40,620 bases of DNA, taken from a virus. Numbering within the stretch: the first letter of the stretch is position 1; every line of letters begins with the position of its first letter. Location: positions 1 to 40,620 of IMG/VR virus record IMGVR_UViG_3300031537_000004; one strand, given 5' to 3'. Shown piece by piece: positions 1 to 40,620 of the stretch. Below the pieces are notes generated by a model. It saw only the letters and a list, made by a program, of their open reading frames with translations. It was not told the origin of the DNA and searched no databases. Position numbers and translations under genes: made by a program.

Positions 1-62
1 CGGTCAGCGCTGGAAGTCGCAGTGTAGGCGATTTACGAGTTTCCTAAGATTTTCCAGCCTGT

Positions 63-88
63 AAGCCGCTTATATCAAGGGCTATAGA
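63..88 (+). repeat. 26-base direct repeat, copy 1
   Basis: This element (core GCTTATATC, then a G-rich run and TATAGA) recurs at 408-433 with 22 of 26 matching positions. The second copy lies about 15 bases before the extended -10 promoter of the terminase operon, so a regulatory or packaging-protein binding role is possible. Confidence 0.6.
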
Positions 89-223
89 GGTTAAAAAGTT
101 ATAAATTTGTCGGTAAAATTAAGAAAAAAATCCTAAAAAATGCATTAAAATCCTTGTAAGTCAGTAATATCAAGGCTTTACAAAAATGCGCAAACTTGTA
201 ATAATCTAGCCTGTAGAACATAC

Positions 224-332
224 CTACAAGTCAGTATTAATCAGTAATGCGCATTACGCTTAAATACTAGGATACAGGTACATGCTACAAGTCAGTATTG
301 ACCTATAACGTACAATTCAGTATTAATCATGG
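224..332 (+). repeat. CTACAAGTCAGTATT-type repeats
   Basis: Three close copies are visible: CTACAAGTCAGTATTAATCAG at 224-244, CTACAAGTCAGTATTGACC at 285-303, and a diverged copy (TACAATTCAGTATTAATCA) at 311-329. A weaker copy lies at 154-175 and another at 40487-40513. Repeats clustered on both sides of the window join are typical of a site recognised by a terminase or a replication protein; which one is not decidable from sequence alone. Confidence 0.55.
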
Positions 333-407
333 ATAGAGTATATTTACTATAATTTTGAATATTTGGTAATTTCTGGTATAGCAACTAACAACTTATATAA
401 TTAATAT

Positions 408-433
408 AAGTCGCTTATATCCGGGGTTATAGA
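408..433 (+). repeat. 26-base direct repeat, copy 2
   Basis: This is the second copy of the element at 63-88, with four substitutions. It sits directly upstream of the probable terminase promoter at 449-457. Confidence 0.6.
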
Positions 434-448
434 CAAAATAACAAAATA

Positions 449-457
449 TGTTATAAT
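449..457 (+). promoter_or_regulatory. Extended -10 promoter of the terminase/structural operon
   Basis: TG-T-TATAAT is a perfect extended -10 box. Transcription would start near 464, only about 15 bases before the small terminase start, with the AAAGGGG ribosome site at the very 5' end of the message. No convincing -35 box is seen, which fits the extended -10 class. Confidence 0.55.
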
Positions 458-478
458 TATTTTAAAGGGGATGATAGC

Positions 479-925
479 ATGTCAATTAAAAAGCCTATCG
501 ATTTAAAACTTTTAGAAGGAAATCCAGGAAAAAGGCCAATTAAAAAACAAAAAAAAATTGATGCTAATAATTTAAAATGCCCGATATGGTTATGCAGTGA
601 AGCAAAAGAAGAGTGGAAAATTATATTACGAATATTAAAAAAATTAAATTTAATATCTACTCTTGATAAAACAATATTAGCAATGTATTGTCAAAATTAT
701 GCTAGGTGGAAACAGGCTGAAGAGGAATTAAATAGTGAAAAACTTAAAACATTAGGACAAAGGGGACCTATCATAAATCCATTAGTTAAAATTTCGCAAT
801 CTTATCAAACTAGAATGAAAATTTCAATTGAAAAACTTGGGTTAAGTCCCAGCGATAGAGCAAATTTAGACATGATAATGAATGATGATAATGAAGATGA
901 TGGAATTGCAAAATATCTAAAATAA
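479..925 (+). CDS. terS: Terminase small subunit, P27 family
   Basis: This is the DNA-recognition subunit of the packaging motor, which binds phage DNA near the packaging site and hands it to the large subunit. The N-terminus contains LKLLEGNPGKRPI, the signature opening of P27-type small terminases, and the 148-residue length is normal for the family. The start is supported by AAAGGGG eight bases upstream. It is the first gene of the structural operon and lies 14 bases ahead of the large subunit. The C-terminus is acidic (DDNEDDG), plausibly the part contacting the large subunit, but that is inference. Confidence 0.93.
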   Translation: MSIKKPIDLKLLEGNPGKRPIKKQKKIDANNLKCPIWLCSEAKEEWKIILRILKKLNLISTLDKTILAMYCQNYARWKQAEEELNSEKLKTLGQRGPIINPLVKISQSYQTRMKISIEKLGLSPSDRANLDMIMNDDNEDDGIAKYLK

Positions 926-4006: not shown

Positions 4007-4580
4007 AATTTTTTCTAATATTTTTGAAATTAGAGAAGATAAAGAGGGAAAACGAGAAATTGAAGGTTATGCCCTAGAATGGGAGACTTTATCCGAAGAA
4101 TTGGGCTGGTGGTTTACATATAGAGAAAAATTTAGAAAAGGGGCTTTTAGGGATTATTTAAAGGATAAAGACACCGATACTAAATTATTGTTAAATCACG
4201 ATACAACTAAAGTTTTGGCCAGGAGCAAATATTCAACAATTGAATTTAAAGAGGATAATACTGGGTTATGGTTCAAGGCTGATTTGCCAGATAATACGAT
4301 AGGCAAGGATACCGTTGAAAGTGTTAAAAGGCGCGATATAGACGGCGTAAGTGTTGGATTTATTATGCGTAAGCAAGAATGGGACGAAACCGACGAAGAA
4401 AATGTAGTTAGAACCGTTATTACTGCGGATTTACCGGAGATTTCGTTAACTGCATGGCCGGCCTATAGTTCATCAAGTGTTGATACAAGAGAAAATGATC
4501 CATATAAATTATATAAAGAAAGAAATCAATATAAAAAAAGGTTAATGTTTTTAAGGGAGGTATTACTCAATGAATCTTAA
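3975..4580 (+). CDS. Prohead protease, HK97 family (peptidase S78)
   Basis: This serine protease acts inside the immature head, removing the delta scaffold of the capsid protein and then itself. Expected catalytic residues are visible: H75 in LLLNHD, S126 in DGVSVGF, and E155 in ADLPEISL. The start is a TTG inside the end of the portal gene, chosen because AGGTGG (3961-3966) is about eight bases upstream. The result is 201 residues, normal for the family. An earlier in-frame start would add a basic, hydrophobic N-terminus not expected in this family. It overlaps the capsid gene by 11 bases. Confidence 0.92.
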   Translation: MPTEIQTKEIRIFSNIFEIREDKEGKREIEGYALEWETLSEELGWWFTYREKFRKGAFRDYLKDKDTDTKLLLNHDTTKVLARSKYSTIEFKEDNTGLWFKADLPDNTIGKDTVESVKRRDIDGVSVGFIMRKQEWDETDEENVVRTVITADLPEISLTAWPAYSSSSVDTRENDPYKLYKERNQYKKRLMFLREVLLNES

Positions 4581-27273: not shown

Positions 27274-27363
27274 TCTTTTTTTTGGAGACATGTAATATTA
27301 ATGTTACAGAATAATTATAAAATAAAAAATTTCATTTGTCATTAAATTAGGTTTTCCTATATA

Positions 27364-27390
27364 AGTTACAAAAATAAAACTTTGTAACTT
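27364..27390. repeat. Inverted repeat of the GTTACAAA iteron
   Basis: AAGTTACAAA and TTTGTAACTT are exact inverted copies separated by seven bases. This is the only place where two opposed iterons form a perfect dyad. Confidence 0.7.
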
Positions 27391-27832
27391 TTCATAATTA
27401 TAGTATATGTTCACAAGCAGATAGACTTTGAAGTATTTTTTTGAGTATTTGATATTACATAAAAGGTTACAAAGTTACATAAAAAATTTTTTTTGTAACC
27501 TGTTTTGTAACCGGGTTTTTCTTTTATATATATATATATATATTAGTAATATAGTAATATATATATATATATATATATCTAGTAACTACAAAAGTTACAA
27601 AGTTACAAAAAAATGCTTGTATTTCCTATATACAAAATTAAAAAATTTTTTTTAAAAAAAAATATTTGTTATTACATATATATAATTTAATTCATTTTTT
27701 TTGTAACTTTTGCTATGTCTCTATTCAAAACATTGATTGCTCTAAGAGTGTATAGGTTACAAAAAACGTTACAATATTTAAAATGACAATTATTAGTGTC
27801 TTATATCCAAGTTATAATCAGTGATTCAGCAA

Positions 27833-27871
27833 GTTACAAAGTTACATAAAAAAGTTACACTTTTATGTAAC
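27833..27871. repeat. Dense iteron cluster
   Basis: Four motifs occur in 39 bases: GTTAC at 27833, 27841 and 27854, and GTAAC at 27867. It is the densest group of the region. Confidence 0.65.
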
Positions 27872-33332: not shown

Positions 33333-33938
33333 TTGAGTAAAACAAAAAAGAAACAAGGCAATTCATTATTTTATTTTTCGATATTTATTATTTTATTTTT
33401 TTTGATTATTCTTTATATAAAATATGTAATATTTTTAATGTTAATAGCCGGATCTATTTTTATAACTTATAAAATAATAAAACATAATAAATTAATTAAA
33501 GAAAGAAGAGATTTATTATTAAGAACAAGCTCATTAAATCAATTGTTATATACATTTCAAAATAACCCTTATGATTTTGAAAAATATATTGCAAATTATT
33601 TTAATCTTTCGGGATATAAAAACGTAAAAACAACACTAAAAAGTAATGATTTAGGCAAAGATATAATCATGTATGATGAAAATAATTCTAAAATTATAGT
33701 AGAGGTTAAATTATATAGCAAACATAATTTAATTGATAGGCCGAAGATCCAAAAATTTCATTCGGCAATGATTGATGAAAATGCGGAAGGCATTTTTGTT
33801 ACTACTAGTGATTTTACCGGACCAGCTTATCAATTTTCAAAAAAACATAATATTAATTTAATTAATGGCGATACTCTAATAAAAAATATATTTGCTTTAA
33901 AAGAAAGAATTAATGAAATTAAGACAAAAAAAATATGA
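33333..33938 (+). CDS. Membrane-anchored Mrr-like restriction endonuclease (cassette gene 3)
   Basis: The 201-residue protein starts at TTG behind the third leader copy. Two membrane helices (about 12-29 and 32-49) are followed by an Mrr_cat-type PD-(D/E)XK domain: DFEKYIANYFNLSGYKNV (81-98), then D110 (LGKDIIM), E124-V-K126 (IIVEVKLY) and Q140 in IQKFHSAM, and the closing GIFVTTSDFTGPAYQFSKKHNINLINGDTLI. All catalytic positions appear intact. The membrane anchor suggests action on DNA entering the cell, for example superinfecting phage DNA. That role is inference. Its TGA stop begins an extended -10 box. Confidence 0.82.
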   Translation: MSKTKKKQGNSLFYFSIFIILFFLIILYIKYVIFLMLIAGSIFITYKIIKHNKLIKERRDLLLRTSSLNQLLYTFQNNPYDFEKYIANYFNLSGYKNVKTTLKSNDLGKDIIMYDENNSKIIVEVKLYSKHNLIDRPKIQKFHSAMIDENAEGIFVTTSDFTGPAYQFSKKHNINLINGDTLIKNIFALKERINEIKTKKI

Positions 33939-33944
33939 TATAAT
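33936..33944 (+). promoter_or_regulatory. Extended -10 box overlapping the Mrr stop codon
   Basis: TG-A-TATAAT begins with the TGA stop of the Mrr-like gene. The surrounding TATGATATAATTAA is nearly identical to those at 18831 and 37593. The only thing downstream before the terminator at 33989-34020 is about 45 noncoding bases. Confidence 0.4.
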
Positions 33945-33950
33945 TAAGTC

Positions 33951-34020
33951 GGGTTTTTTATTTTTTAAAATTTTGCTACTTCTTATATAAAAAAGGGATA
34001 TAAATATATCTCTTTTTTTA
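33951..34020 (+). ncRNA. Candidate small RNA of about 70 bases
   Basis: From the predicted start of the promoter at 33936-33944 to the intrinsic terminator there is no open frame. Support is by architecture only. Confidence 0.3.
33989..34020 (+). terminator. Intrinsic terminator after the Mrr-like gene
   Basis: AAAAAAGGGATAT (33989-34001) pairs with ATATCTCTTTTTT (34006-34018) with one G-T pair and a short AAAT loop, followed by T. It ends the cassette. Confidence 0.72.
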
Positions 34021-36242: not shown

Positions 36243-36713
36243 ATGGAAAAAAATTGTAAATTATCAAAAGAATTAAGTACAAAATATAAGGCTAAAAAAA
36301 ATGAATGTACTGATAATAGCTTTAAAATATGTAAATATGAAAAATTAGATTTATGTATAGGATTTATAGAGCATGAAAATTATTATTTTATTCATCTATG
36401 GAATATACATAATAACAAAATTGTTGATACTACCCTTCCAGATGATGAAAAAGATTATAATTATATTGAAATTATGAGAATTAATAATTTTGATGTAATC
36501 AAGAAAAAAATATCTGATAGTTATAAAGTAATTGGATTAATAGAAAAAAAATTATCAATCTTAAAAGAGGAAAATGTTGGAGGGTTTTCTATTTCTCTGG
36601 CAACTAATTTTAAAATTTATAGAGAATCTAAGACTGAACACGAATTTTGTTGTTTAAGTGCGCTTGCAATGTTTTCTGAAAATATAAAAAGAATGGAATA
36701 TGAATTTATTTAA
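36243..36713 (+). CDS. Possible transglutaminase-like protein, 156 residues, partner of the zinc-ribbon/HTH gene
   Basis: NECTDNSFKICKYEKLDLCIGFIEHENYYFIHLWNIHNNKIVDTTL contains a C...H-x-W-N...D-x-T arrangement (C22, H61, D70 or nearby) seen in papain/transglutaminase-like proteins. The remainder is helical and unrecognised. It starts three bases after the HTH gene behind AAAGGAAT. If the pairing is a toxin-antitoxin-like system, this would be the effector. That is speculation. Confidence 0.6.
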   Translation: MEKNCKLSKELSTKYKAKKNECTDNSFKICKYEKLDLCIGFIEHENYYFIHLWNIHNNKIVDTTLPDDEKDYNYIEIMRINNFDVIKKKISDSYKVIGLIEKKLSILKEENVGGFSISLATNFKIYRESKTEHEFCCLSALAMFSENIKRMEYEFI

Positions 36714-36724
36714 AAAGGAGCAAT

Positions 36725-36943
36725 ATGTTTTATTTTGTTTTTAATATTGAATTTAAAAATATTGAATGGTCCGGCCAAATATATGTTAGAAAAAATGAAA
36801 CAATAAAAGAATCAATAAAAAGACATTTTCCAGATTGGAAAGAAAATGACGATTTTGGTGTTAGTAAAAATTATTGTGTATATATCAAAAATATTTTGGT
36901 CGAAGATTTATTAGATTATTTAAAAGAAAATGGATTTGCTTAA
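36725..36943 (+). CDS. Hypothetical protein, 72 residues
   Basis: A small alpha/beta protein (MFYFVFNIEFKNIEWSGQIYVRK, then SIKRHFPDWKENDDFGVSKNYCVYI, then LLDYLKENGFA). AAAAAGGAGC precedes the ATG. No family recognised. Confidence 0.58.
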   Translation: MFYFVFNIEFKNIEWSGQIYVRKNETIKESIKRHFPDWKENDDFGVSKNYCVYIKNILVEDLLDYLKENGFA

Positions 36944-36948
36944 ATAAA

Positions 36949-37021
36949 GGGTCTTCCCTATCCCCTAAAGGCTAAAATTTATATATATAGAGAGAAATTC
37001 CCGGTAGGGGATAGAGGACCT
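36949..37021 (+). promoter_or_regulatory. Structured RNA leader or terminator
   Basis: The segment CTATCCCCTA (36958-36967) pairs exactly with TAGGGGATAG (37005-37014), and the flanking GGTC (36950-36953) pairs with GACC (37017-37020), giving a long, GC-rich stem closed by an AT-rich 37-base loop with its own small stem. It begins six bases after the preceding stop and ends just before the next ribosome site. It could be an attenuator, riboswitch-like leader or terminator. Confidence 0.6.
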
Positions 37022-37043
37022 ATAAAAAAAAGGGGGGATAAAA

Positions 37044-37220
37044 TTGATTGTTTTAATTTTCAAAGTAATTTTTGAAATGATTTTTTTTGATAAAGAACAG
37101 GGATTAAATATTTTTTTATTAACTAATAAAGAGTGTAAAAAATATAAATTAAATGGTAAAAAAAAAGATCATCCAGACAATGATCCATTCCCTATCTATT
37201 TAGGAGATGAAAAAATATAA
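37044..37220 (+). CDS. 58-residue hypothetical protein
   Basis: TTG start eight bases after AGGGGGG. The N-terminus is hydrophobic (MIVLIFKVIFEMIFF), possibly membrane-associated, and the rest is lysine-rich with a DHPDNDPFPIYLGDE end. No family recognised. It is the last gene before the hairpin array and is controlled by the structured leader just upstream. Confidence 0.5.
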   Translation: MIVLIFKVIFEMIFFDKEQGLNIFLLTNKECKKYKLNGKKKDHPDNDPFPIYLGDEKI

Positions 37221-37318
37221 GATATTCCTTAAGTATAATTAACAGTATACCATTGAAGAGTAATAATGTATAATGTTCTTAGTAATTTATAAATCCACAT
37301 TGTAAATAAAACTATAGT

Positions 37319-37348
37319 AAAAATACCCATAAACTTATGGGTATTTTT
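37319..37348 (+). terminator. Hairpin 1 of the array
   Basis: AAAAATACCCATA pairs with TATGGGTATTTTT around AACT. It ends in a T run, so it is a strong intrinsic terminator in both directions. Confidence 0.8.
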
Positions 37349-37446
37349 ATTGTTTTATGTATATATTTATTATATATTATATATAGACTGTAGTTATTTA
37401 AAATTAAGTTGTATAACATCTGCTCAAAAGCCAGTAAAATGCATTC

Positions 37447-37480
37447 AAAAATATTCACTCTTTAAAGGGTGAATATTTTT
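37447..37480 (+). terminator. Hairpin 2 of the array
   Basis: AAAAATATTCACTC pairs with GGGTGAATATTTTT (one G-T pair) around TTTAAA, with a T run. An extended -10 box follows within two bases. Confidence 0.8.
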
Positions 37481-37481
37481 A

Positions 37482-37490
37482 TGTTATAAT
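37482..37490 (+). promoter_or_regulatory. Extended -10 box A of the array
   Basis: TG-T-TATAAT lies directly after hairpin 2. It would start a transcript near 37497 that ends at hairpin 3. Confidence 0.5.
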
Positions 37491-37496
37491 AATGTT

Positions 37497-37585
37497 GTTG
37501 ATTACTTTATATTAAAACTTCTAATATTTGTGTTTTGCGAATTAGTTTTGTTCCTAAGAACTGTACTTTTTAGTACAGTTTTTAG
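37497..37585 (+). ncRNA. Candidate small RNA A, about 85 bases
   Basis: This is the interval from the predicted start of box A to the T run of hairpin 3. There is no plausible open frame. Support is by architecture only, without known family. Confidence 0.4.
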
Positions 37586-37590
37586 TTTTT
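37559..37590 (+). terminator. Hairpin 3 of the array
   Basis: AACTGTACT pairs with AGTACAGTT around TTTT, followed by TTT and a further T run. It ends transcript A. Confidence 0.8.
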
Positions 37591-37592
37591 TA

Positions 37593-37601
37593 TGATATAA
37601 T
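37593..37601 (+). promoter_or_regulatory. Extended -10 box B of the array
   Basis: TG-A-TATAAT, with surrounding TATGATATAATTAA, the same context as at 33936 and 18831. It would start a transcript near 37608. Confidence 0.5.
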
Positions 37602-37607
37602 TAAAAA

Positions 37608-37697
37608 AAATCACTAAAAACTTGTACTTTTTTGATGGCAATAATTTTGAATACTAGTTTAAACTAAAAATATCCATAGGTCGAATGGATATTTTTA
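37608..37697 (+). ncRNA. Candidate small RNA B, about 90 bases
   Basis: Interval between box B and the T run of hairpin 4, with no plausible open frame. It is not similar in sequence to candidate A. Confidence 0.4.
37666..37696 (+). terminator. Hairpin 4 of the array
   Basis: AAAAATATCCAT pairs with ATGGATATTTTT around AGGTCGA. An extended -10 box follows two bases later. Confidence 0.8.
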
Positions 37698-37706
37698 TGT
37701 TATAAT
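37698..37706 (+). promoter_or_regulatory. Extended -10 box C of the array
   Basis: TG-T-TATAAT right after hairpin 4. It could make a short transcript of about 55 bases ending at hairpin 5, or serve the methyltransferase by read-through. Confidence 0.5.
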
Positions 37707-37712
37707 ATTTAT

Positions 37713-37767
37713 AATGTTTTTTCATTTACTATTTAAAAAAGCCGATTAAATTATAATCGGCTTTTTC
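37713..37767 (+). ncRNA. Candidate small RNA C, about 55 bases
   Basis: Interval between box C and hairpin 5. It is the shortest unit and is mostly terminator. Confidence 0.3.
37735..37767 (+). terminator. Hairpin 5 of the array
   Basis: AAAAAAGCCGATTA pairs with TAATCGGCTTTTT around AATTA. It is the strongest of the five and separates the array from the methyltransferase gene. Confidence 0.85.
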
Positions 37768-37834
37768 CCTTGCAAACGCTTAAAATACAAAATTTAAAAG
37801 GCATAAAAAAATTATACCATATATAGAGGGAAAA

Positions 37835-38569
37835 ATGATAGAAATTGAAAATACTGATTGTTTTGTTGCCATGAAAAATTTAAGTCCTGGATCTATAGAT
37901 ATGATTTTAACAGATCCTCCATACAATGTGACGGCGGCTAATTGGGACAAAGTGATTGATATTGAATTATTGTGGAAAGAGTATAAAAGAATAATTAAGC
38001 CAAATGGTTGTATTGCTATATTTGGTATAGAGCCATTTTCTACGATAATAAAATATCATAACTTGAAACAATTAAAATATGATTGGATATGGGTTAAGGA
38101 TAAGGCAACAAATTTTTTAAATTGCCGTAAGCAACCTTTAAGAAAAAGTGAAACAATTTCTATATTTTATAAAAAACAATCCCTATATATACCACAATTA
38201 TATAAAAATGATCCCAAAAATATACGGCCAGCAAAAAAAAGAATGTATAAAACTGACTTATATGGGGATCATTATAAAATAGTTAAAAAGACAATACCTG
38301 AAAATATGTGTTATCCAAACAATCTGTTATTTTTTAATAAAGAACAAAGACCATATCATCCGGCCCAAAAACCAATTAAATTATTAGAATATTTAATCAA
38401 AACTTATACTGCAGAAAACCAAAACCAAATAATCCTAGATACATTTATGGGATCAGGAAATGTTGGTATGGCTGCTAAAAATTTAAAACGTTATTTTATA
38501 GGCTATGAGATAGATTCATATTATTTTAAAATTGCTAAAAATAGAATTTTTGAGTATAGCATTATTTAA
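37835..38569 (+). CDS. DNA methyltransferase, beta-class (N6-adenine or N4-cytosine)
   Basis: The 244-residue protein transfers a methyl group to an exocyclic amino group in DNA. The catalytic DPPY (27-30) comes before the cofactor motif LDTFMGSGNV (201-210), the order of the beta class. HPAQKP (175-180) and GYEID (223-227) agree. The recognition domain between about 90 and 165 is short, so the site should be simple; the exact target cannot be read. No restriction partner is adjacent, so it is an orphan, probably protecting phage DNA from host restriction. AGAGGG precedes the ATG. Confidence 0.9.
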   Translation: MIEIENTDCFVAMKNLSPGSIDMILTDPPYNVTAANWDKVIDIELLWKEYKRIIKPNGCIAIFGIEPFSTIIKYHNLKQLKYDWIWVKDKATNFLNCRKQPLRKSETISIFYKKQSLYIPQLYKNDPKNIRPAKKRMYKTDLYGDHYKIVKKTIPENMCYPNNLLFFNKEQRPYHPAQKPIKLLEYLIKTYTAENQNQIILDTFMGSGNVGMAAKNLKRYFIGYEIDSYYFKIAKNRIFEYSII

Positions 38570-38907
38570 TAATTGTTTGTATCTTTTATAACAACGTTAA
38601 TGCATTGTTTTTTTAGACAAGAATTAAACTCGACTTGCATTTTTTTTAATTCTTGTTTGCTAGGATTTATGGCAATCGCCTCAATTATTAAAAAGTCCTC
38701 TTCAGAATTTTTCAAAATCAGAACTAATTTGATTTCATAAGGCAATTTTACCTTCCAGATTTCAAATTTATCATGTTCCTTTAATAGTTCTTTAGTGCCT
38801 CGTAAGACTTTCTTAATTTTATCATTTATGTTTAATCTCATTTTATATAAGGTTTTATCATCTTTACATTCTTTTGGATCAGCTCTTAATTCATATTTTT
38901 TTATCAT
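38566..38907 (-). CDS. Hypothetical minus-strand protein, 113 residues
   Basis: ATG at 38907 follows GGAGGG; an earlier in-frame start at 38946 has none. The protein has KKYELRADPKECKDDKTLYKMRLNINDKIKKVL, then KFEIWKVKLPYEIKLVLILK and FLIIEAIAINPSKQEL, an alpha/beta layout a little like RelE-type toxins, but without a convincing match. It runs into the methyltransferase end with four bases of overlap and lies alone on this strand. Confidence 0.62.
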   Translation of the reverse strand: MIKKYELRADPKECKDDKTLYKMRLNINDKIKKVLRGTKELLKEHDKFEIWKVKLPYEIKLVLILKNSEEDFLIIEAIAINPSKQELKKMQVEFNSCLKKQCINVVIKDTNNY

Positions 38908-40186: not shown

Positions 40187-40195
40187 TGGTATAAT
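40187..40195 (+). promoter_or_regulatory. Extended -10 box near the right end
   Basis: TG-G-TATAAT lies ten bases after the stop of the last gene. A terminator follows about 60 bases downstream, so it may make a short RNA. Confidence 0.4.
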
Positions 40196-40201
40196 TGTTT
40201 A

Positions 40202-40279
40202 GGTAAAATAAATTTGTTGTCTCTATAACAAGATAAGTAAGGATATATAATAGATAGTTAATAGCTATCTATTATTTTA
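40202..40279 (+). ncRNA. Candidate small RNA of about 78 bases
   Basis: Predicted from the extended -10 box at 40187 and the hairpin at 40249-40273. There is no open frame in the interval. Confidence 0.28.
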
Positions 40280-40280
40280 T
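40249..40280 (+). terminator. Terminator near the right end
   Basis: AATAGATAG (40249-40257) pairs with CTATCTATT (40265-40273) around TTAATAG, followed by ATTTTATT. It probably ends the HNH gene run. Confidence 0.65.
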
Positions 40281-40454
40281 TGTCAATATTATGTTTCAAT
40301 TTAAATTATCTCTTTCATTCTTTAATATGCTTAATATTATAACATCAATTCAAATCCTACAAAAACCTGGCTAAAAAATGCATAAGGCTAGGTCAAATGC
40401 TATACCATATATTACCATATAAGTATATATATAGCATATATATTATATATAATT

Positions 40455-40524
40455 AGCATGGTTATAATGTAGTATTGATCATAGCTCTACGAGTCAGTGT
40501 TGATCAGTGTTATACTACCATGCT
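40455..40524. repeat. Large dyad with terminal repeat copy
   Basis: AGCATGGT (40455-40462) and ACCATGCT (40517-40524) are inverted copies enclosing 54 bases, which include CTACGAGTCAGTGTTGATCAG (40487-40507), a relative of the repeats at 224-303. Two TGATCA palindromes lie inside. It is a candidate binding site for a packaging or replication protein. Confidence 0.55.
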
Positions 40525-40620
40525 CTAGTCCTGTAGTGGTGCTGTCCCTACAGCCCAGTACTAGACAGCAACTGCGCTCACCCTTCAACACCTGTCTACT
40601 ACTTGTCTCTGTGTCTAGCT

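Follow-up and report, generated by a model that had tools for sequence, protein, structure and literature searches.

The locus

The stretch of DNA analysed here, hereafter the window, is a 40.6-kb viral record with a G+C content of 28.6%. In its accessory region, which runs from the lysis genes to the genome end, a likely gene for 57 amino acids (37047-37220, with a TTG start after GGGGGG) stops just short of a 614-base interval without genes (37221-37834), and a DNA methyltransferase gene follows. Five strong terminator hairpins stand within 37314-37766 of this interval. Together with the extended -10 boxes and the RNAs predicted from them, the features are, in order:

37314-37353, both directions: two-way terminator hairpin H1 (-19.4 kcal/mol), which closes a long upstream operon and has no clean extended -10 behind it
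37447-37480, plus strand: terminator hairpin H2 (-14.5 kcal/mol), its tail fused to P_A
37482-37490, plus strand: P_A, extended -10 TGTTATAAT, starting 2 nt after H2
37497-37592, plus strand: predicted RNA A, about 96 nt, ending after H3
37554-37585, plus strand: terminator hairpin H3 (-16.6 kcal/mol), followed by TTTTTT
37593-37601, plus strand: P_B, extended -10 TGATATAAT, starting 8 nt after H3
37608-37702, plus strand: predicted RNA B, about 95 nt
37665-37697, both directions: two-way terminator hairpin H4 (-11.3 kcal/mol), its tail fused to P_C
37698-37706, plus strand: P_C, extended -10 TGTTATAAT, starting 1 nt after H4
37713-37770, plus strand: predicted RNA C, about 58 nt
37731-37804, minus strand: predicted RNA D, about 74 nt, ending at H5
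37736-37766, both directions: two-way terminator hairpin H5 (-14.6 kcal/mol), with no extended -10 after it
37811-37819, minus strand: P_D, extended -10 TGGTATAAT, reading toward H5
37835-38569, plus strand: N6/N4 DNA methyltransferase, a mobile accessory gene that occupies other sites in relatives

The predicted RNAs follow from this anatomy, with starts placed about 7 nt past the -10 box as in the staphylococcal prophage phiNM2 (see below). An earlier note on this DNA had described five hairpins in a row, the second to fourth each followed by an extended -10 box and spaced about 108 bases apart. All of this was borne out: the boxes begin 1-8 nt after their hairpins, and the start-to-start distances from H2 to H3 and from H3 to H4 are 107 and 111 nt. 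P_A has a weak -35 element, TTTAAA at 37461, which lies inside H2 at a spacer of 18. H1, H4 and H5 have T-runs on both flanks. The stems of H1, H2 and H4 fit a common pattern, AAAAATA-NYCA, in which their differences are paired across the arms (ATTCA/TGAAT, ATCCA/TGGAT and ACCCA/TGGGT); H3 and H5 are unlike these. The unit bodies are mutually dissimilar, and the junctions behind H2 and H4 are identical at 21 of 22 nt. Predicted RNA B contains the palindrome TAGTTTAAACTA (37655-37666), which occurs nowhere else in the window. No small open reading frame with a clear ribosome-binding site was found within the units. A search for tRNA genes returned none, excluding a tRNA array, and covariance searches against Rfam, which the earlier note had proposed, gave no match at gathering or loose thresholds. 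Outside the interval, a long hairpin at 36949-37021 (about -28 kcal/mol, z -2.3) lies directly 5′ of the ribosome-binding site of the likely 57-amino-acid gene.

Excess over chance

Dinucleotide shuffles of the 614-base interval served as the null. Among 1,000 of them, 983 contained no hairpin at or below -11 kcal/mol, 15 contained one and 2 contained two, compared with five in the interval itself. Couplings of a hairpin to a promoter, three of which are observed, arose in none of the 1,000 shuffles, and the junctions at H2, H3 and H4 are the only plus-strand couplings across the whole window. In 665 kb of phage DNA not picked for the motif, the same finder detected six distinct couplings, of which four are variants of a single sequence; none formed a tandem pair. 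Five hairpins and three couplings lie far above the shuffles; the observation is therefore correct and not a product of chance, and the array is real.

A mapped counterpart in a staphylococcal prophage

Five short RNAs, srn_9342-9346, have been mapped within some 650 nt downstream of the amidase gene in the Staphylococcus aureus Newman prophage phiNM2, three of them independent plus-strand RNAs and two on the minus strand (Bronsard et al. 2017, PMC5496865). In the phiNM2 sequence, hairpins run into TTTTTTTATGTTATAAT and TTTTATGTTATAAT and so separate the plus-strand units. We placed the published ends on this sequence (L253) with one free offset, setting the 5′ end of P2 at 7 nt past the first -10. 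The 3′ ends of P1, the 3′ end of P2 and the 5′ and 3′ ends of P3 then fall at 4524, 4628, 4782, 4802 and 5116, close to predicted hairpins that end at 4520, 4626, 4784 and 5115 and to a -10 box whose last base is 4796. Apart from the P2 start used as anchor, the published plus-strand ends thus lie within about 4 nt of predicted hairpin ends or 6 nt past a -10 box, with the exception of the P1 start, which is inside the amidase gene.

The two loci share their arrangement: a gene-free stretch (about 650-700 nt in phiNM2) downstream of lysis genes, holding tandem units of promoter, noncoding body and terminator, with the fused terminator/promoter junction TTTTATGTTATAAT in both. Each phiNM2 RNA starts about 20 nt past the end of the preceding one, as the units in the window would. 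The phage lineage is different, however, the RNA bodies are unrelated and no DNA similarity was found. No staphylococcal record matched window positions 36700-38700, and the array is not a homologue of the srn genes but only like them in arrangement. It also lies about 5.8 kb past the endolysin, behind an accessory operon and beside the methyltransferase, unlike the phiNM2 cluster. The chain of independent short transcripts that the earlier note had envisaged is, as a prediction, well supported by the anatomy, the statistics and this mapped analogue. As an arrangement it is already known from phiNM2; for the phage group of the window it is apparently new, as far as we could find in the literature.

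A scan for spaced TATGNTATAAT boxes after T-runs retrieved contigs with the junction type of the window, several of which match staphylococcal phages; one such locus adjoins a match to the Rfam small RNA S808.

Units with exchangeable cargo in other phages

In Coventryvirus phages, the lysin and the integrase flank a unit of this kind. Over 870 bp, up to the base after the extended -10 TGTTATAAT, SpT5 and SN13 show 100% identity, and homology restarts at the first base of the final terminator, ACCACACCC...GGTGTGGT. Between the shared promoter and the shared terminator lie 77 noncoding nt in SpT5 and, in SN13, about 800 bp carrying two genes. Phages phiSP44-1 and SpT99F3 have genes in the same place, and phage 2638A carries the SpT5 unit at about 90% identity. 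In phages of the phiETA group, a terminator resembling that of the IME1354 unit stands behind a conversion gene. In strain NCTC8325, a three-gene insertion takes the place of two of the Newman small-RNA genes (PMC5496865). Beyond staphylococci, about 480 bp of Streptococcus phage vB_SagS-GXN2, downstream of the lysis amidases, contain six hairpins. Several are fused to TATGTTATAAT-like extended -10 boxes, and behind the last comes a small open frame, not annotated, that has a terminator of its own. The SpT5/SN13 swap, the gene examples and GXN2 together lead us to conclude that promoter-[cargo]-terminator units with exchangeable cargo exist; those without genes can make short RNAs. That a noncoding body is exactly interchangeable with genes in the staphylococcal pair favours reading such units as expression slots.

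Moron or lysogenic conversion slots hold accessory genes with their own promoter and terminator. They resemble the array in this and in their position, past the lysis genes and before the late region ends, but the units in the window hold no gene. PeSL (promoter early - stem loop) units are said, by Arbiol et al. in 2010 and Comeau et al. in 2014, to lie between accessory genes and to be tied to gene shuffling. In PMC4503421, PeSL elements are composite terminator-promoter units of T4-type phages, and the composite motif is common to them and the window. PeSL elements, however, use T4-type early promoters in myoviruses, whereas the window has host-type extended -10 boxes and other portal and terminase families, and the shuffling linked to PeSL is not seen for the window's own array. 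With a phrog_12 portal and a phrog_9 terminase, the window phage is not a T4-type myovirus.

Relatives of the window phage

The close relatives, two contigs with a terminase 96-97% identical to that of the window (L073 and L074) and a genome 54-91% identical in structural proteins (G004), are fragments that end before the interval, and comparison of the array covers distant relatives. Two of these, G006 and G007 (30-41% identity in shared structural proteins; 57% for the endolysin of G007), each carry a T-P-T-P-T array of terminators (T) and promoters (P), with TATGTTATAAT boxes 80 and 83 nt apart. These arrays lie between an origin-like repeat region and an operon of small genes, a site differing from that in the window. 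When the two genomes are aligned, the boxes are 100% identical and the hairpins 94-100%; body 1 is 80% identical (p=0.28) and body 2 86% (p=0.018), against 74.6% at 2,872 fourfold sites. Constraint acts on the start and stop signals; on the bodies there is hardly any, or it is weak. As the noncoding DNA upstream of the array is 91% conserved too, conservation by itself does not single out the array.

Searches through the neighbouring proteins for relatives of the right-hand part of the window gave only HNH relatives or none. The best annotated portal matches are mostly Bacillota phages, at up to about 51% identity. No integrase or repressor was found among the proteins tested, and given the lack of an integrase among them the lysogenic setting of the staphylococcal examples may not apply here.

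Interpretation

Our preferred reading, which we consider probable, is that the array is a set of tandem autonomous promoter-[cargo]-terminator units of a Bacillota-type phage, gene-free slots that now hold noncoding RNAs. Host sigma-A RNA polymerase would start from every extended -10, some 15-25 nt beyond the hairpin before it, transcribe 58-96 nt without a gene in each plus-strand unit and stop at the next hairpin; the fourth unit would run on the minus strand into H5. The fused junctions would make every unit autonomous, so that units could be gained, lost or filled with genes with no effect on the units beside them. The anatomy, its excess over chance, the recurrence of such arrays in phages, the mapped phiNM2 RNAs and the staphylococcal exchange of body for gene are the established parts of this reading. 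Transcription in the window phage and the slot role here are what we infer, the latter by analogy because the close relatives stop short of the interval. Against a slot role here, SpT5 and SN13, which show the exact swap, are unrelated to the window phage, and G006 and G007 have their arrays at a different site.

That the units instead encode trans-acting regulatory small RNAs, acting on host or phage messages and kept for that purpose, is possible but doubtful. The RNAs of the equivalent phiNM2 locus are regulated by growth phase (PMC5496865), SprY, which acts in trans, is of staphylococcal prophage origin (review PMC12197685), the SpT5 unit recurs in 2638A, and body 2 of G006 and G007 lies somewhat above the fourfold sites. 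Body 1, however, is not above neutral, bodies A, B and C show complementarity near window gene starts no better than that of shuffled bodies, Rfam holds no match, and the bodies in SpT5 and SN13 can be replaced by genes. Of the small-RNA cluster proposed in the earlier note, the architecture of short units is thus upheld, and the regulatory role, with near-neutral bodies, no target beyond shuffles and bodies interchangeable with genes, is unproven. A narrower role is conceivable for the last unit, although we think it unlikely: P_C would make the methyltransferase message and H5 would attenuate it until antitermination or read-through. P_C is the nearest sigma-70-like promoter 5′ of the methyltransferase, and since the DNA from H5 to the gene holds no such site scoring at least 9/12, RNA C may serve also as an attenuated leader; the first mapped RNA of phiNM2 likewise leaks past one terminator into the next unit (PMC5496865). 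The gene may, on the other hand, have a phage-specific promoter.

We regard as improbable an insulator or decoy in which stacked terminators halt the upstream operon and antisense reads, shield the methyltransferase and the genome-end genes, and have promoters beside them only incidentally. H1, H4 and H5 can work both ways and H1 closes the long upstream operon, but three near-consensus boxes 1-8 nt after hairpins are not incidental by the shuffles, and G006 and G007 keep promoters and terminators alike. The barrier protecting the methyltransferase that the earlier note had offered as an alternative therefore fits poorly as a sole purpose, since one terminator would be enough and promoters would be unneeded. 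More improbable still is a degenerate tandem duplication of one terminator-promoter element without present function. The near-identity of the H2 and H4 junctions and the single stem pattern of H1, H2 and H4 speak for it; yet the stem differences are matched on both arms, H3 and H5 do not fit, and convergence on a T-run plus extended -10 can explain the junctions because unrelated phages share them. The earlier claim that the transcripts are unalike, leaving no room for simple repeat expansion, accordingly holds for the bodies, for which expansion is rejected by their dissimilarity, but not for all hairpins, some of which may have arisen in this way.

The slot reading ties together prophage short-RNA clusters, terminator-promoter cassettes and accessory-gene slots, which are usually handled separately. 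If it is true, many orphan prophage small RNAs may be slot occupants rather than dedicated regulators, and the recurring junction offers a simple search handle for accessory-gene sites in phages. More tentatively, and with the odds against it, fused terminator/extended -10 junctions (TTTTTATGWTATAAT) may be a general exchange format of Bacillota phages, in which RNAs and accessory genes are interchangeable and many orphan prophage small RNAs are the content of gene-free slots.

Accessory genes and other possible short units

The methyltransferase is 79-81% identical to those of G003, G006 and G007, which carry it at different sites and share structural proteins with the window at only 30-41% identity. 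In G004 (L007, 3713-4000), a terminase remnant of about 280 bp from the G003/G006/G007 lineage precedes the methyltransferase and marks its passage from one phage lineage to another. On these comparisons, accessory genes do travel within this phage group. An Mrr-type restriction endonuclease domain (PF04471) at 33333-33938 shares the accessory region with the methyltransferase and is possibly linked to it functionally.

An extended -10 at 33936 overlaps the end of the endonuclease gene, with a hairpin about 50 nt on (33989-34018), and makes 33936-34018 a possible further short promoter-terminator unit. Near the genome end, an extended -10 at 40187 on the plus strand leads within about 60 nt to a hairpin at 40247-40275, at which a minus-strand box at 40344 aims from the opposite side; 40187-40344 is a possible second short-RNA site. 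With the minus-strand box at 37819, several promoter-like boxes thus lead into a hairpin and not a gene. Other boxes, at 449 and 18831, resemble ordinary gene promoters.

A scan for three spaced TATGNTATAAT boxes, which misses arrays spaced at 80 nt such as that of G006, returned 19 viral and 90 genome stretches. Among the viral matches listed, most are promoters stacked before a gene, or repeats, without terminators, and only an uncultured phage (L063) has nonrepeated units like those of the window; most genome matches are near-identical tandem repeats, many of them clostridial. A doubled unit in another contig (L059) was given no weight, as it contains N and is probably an assembly artefact. 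In one viral contig (L137, minus strand, from 1620), units of about 100 nt follow one another in tandem; all of them contain TATGATATAAT and share a AGACGGAAA element, and they look like a family of related short RNAs. Several clostridial loci (among them L157, L165 and L168) consist of repeats of about 90-111 nt, nearly identical and in tandem, in several cases with ends TATGATATAATAAAAGC...GCTTTTATTGAATCATA, and resemble mobile repeats. Five loci (L138, L139, L141, L146 and L150) have three or four near-consensus promoters 90-110 nt apart before one viral gene, without terminators.

Repeats like ACAAGTCAGTATT occur near both ends of the window (1-480 and 40480-40620), and L073, L074 and G004 each have an end no more than about 15 nt from its left end, which suggests a fixed genome end. 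Origin-like GTTACAAAGTTACA repeats occupy a gene-free stretch at 27360-27870, and G006 and G007 have other repeats at the matching place (CTCAGCA and TTACGCAA).
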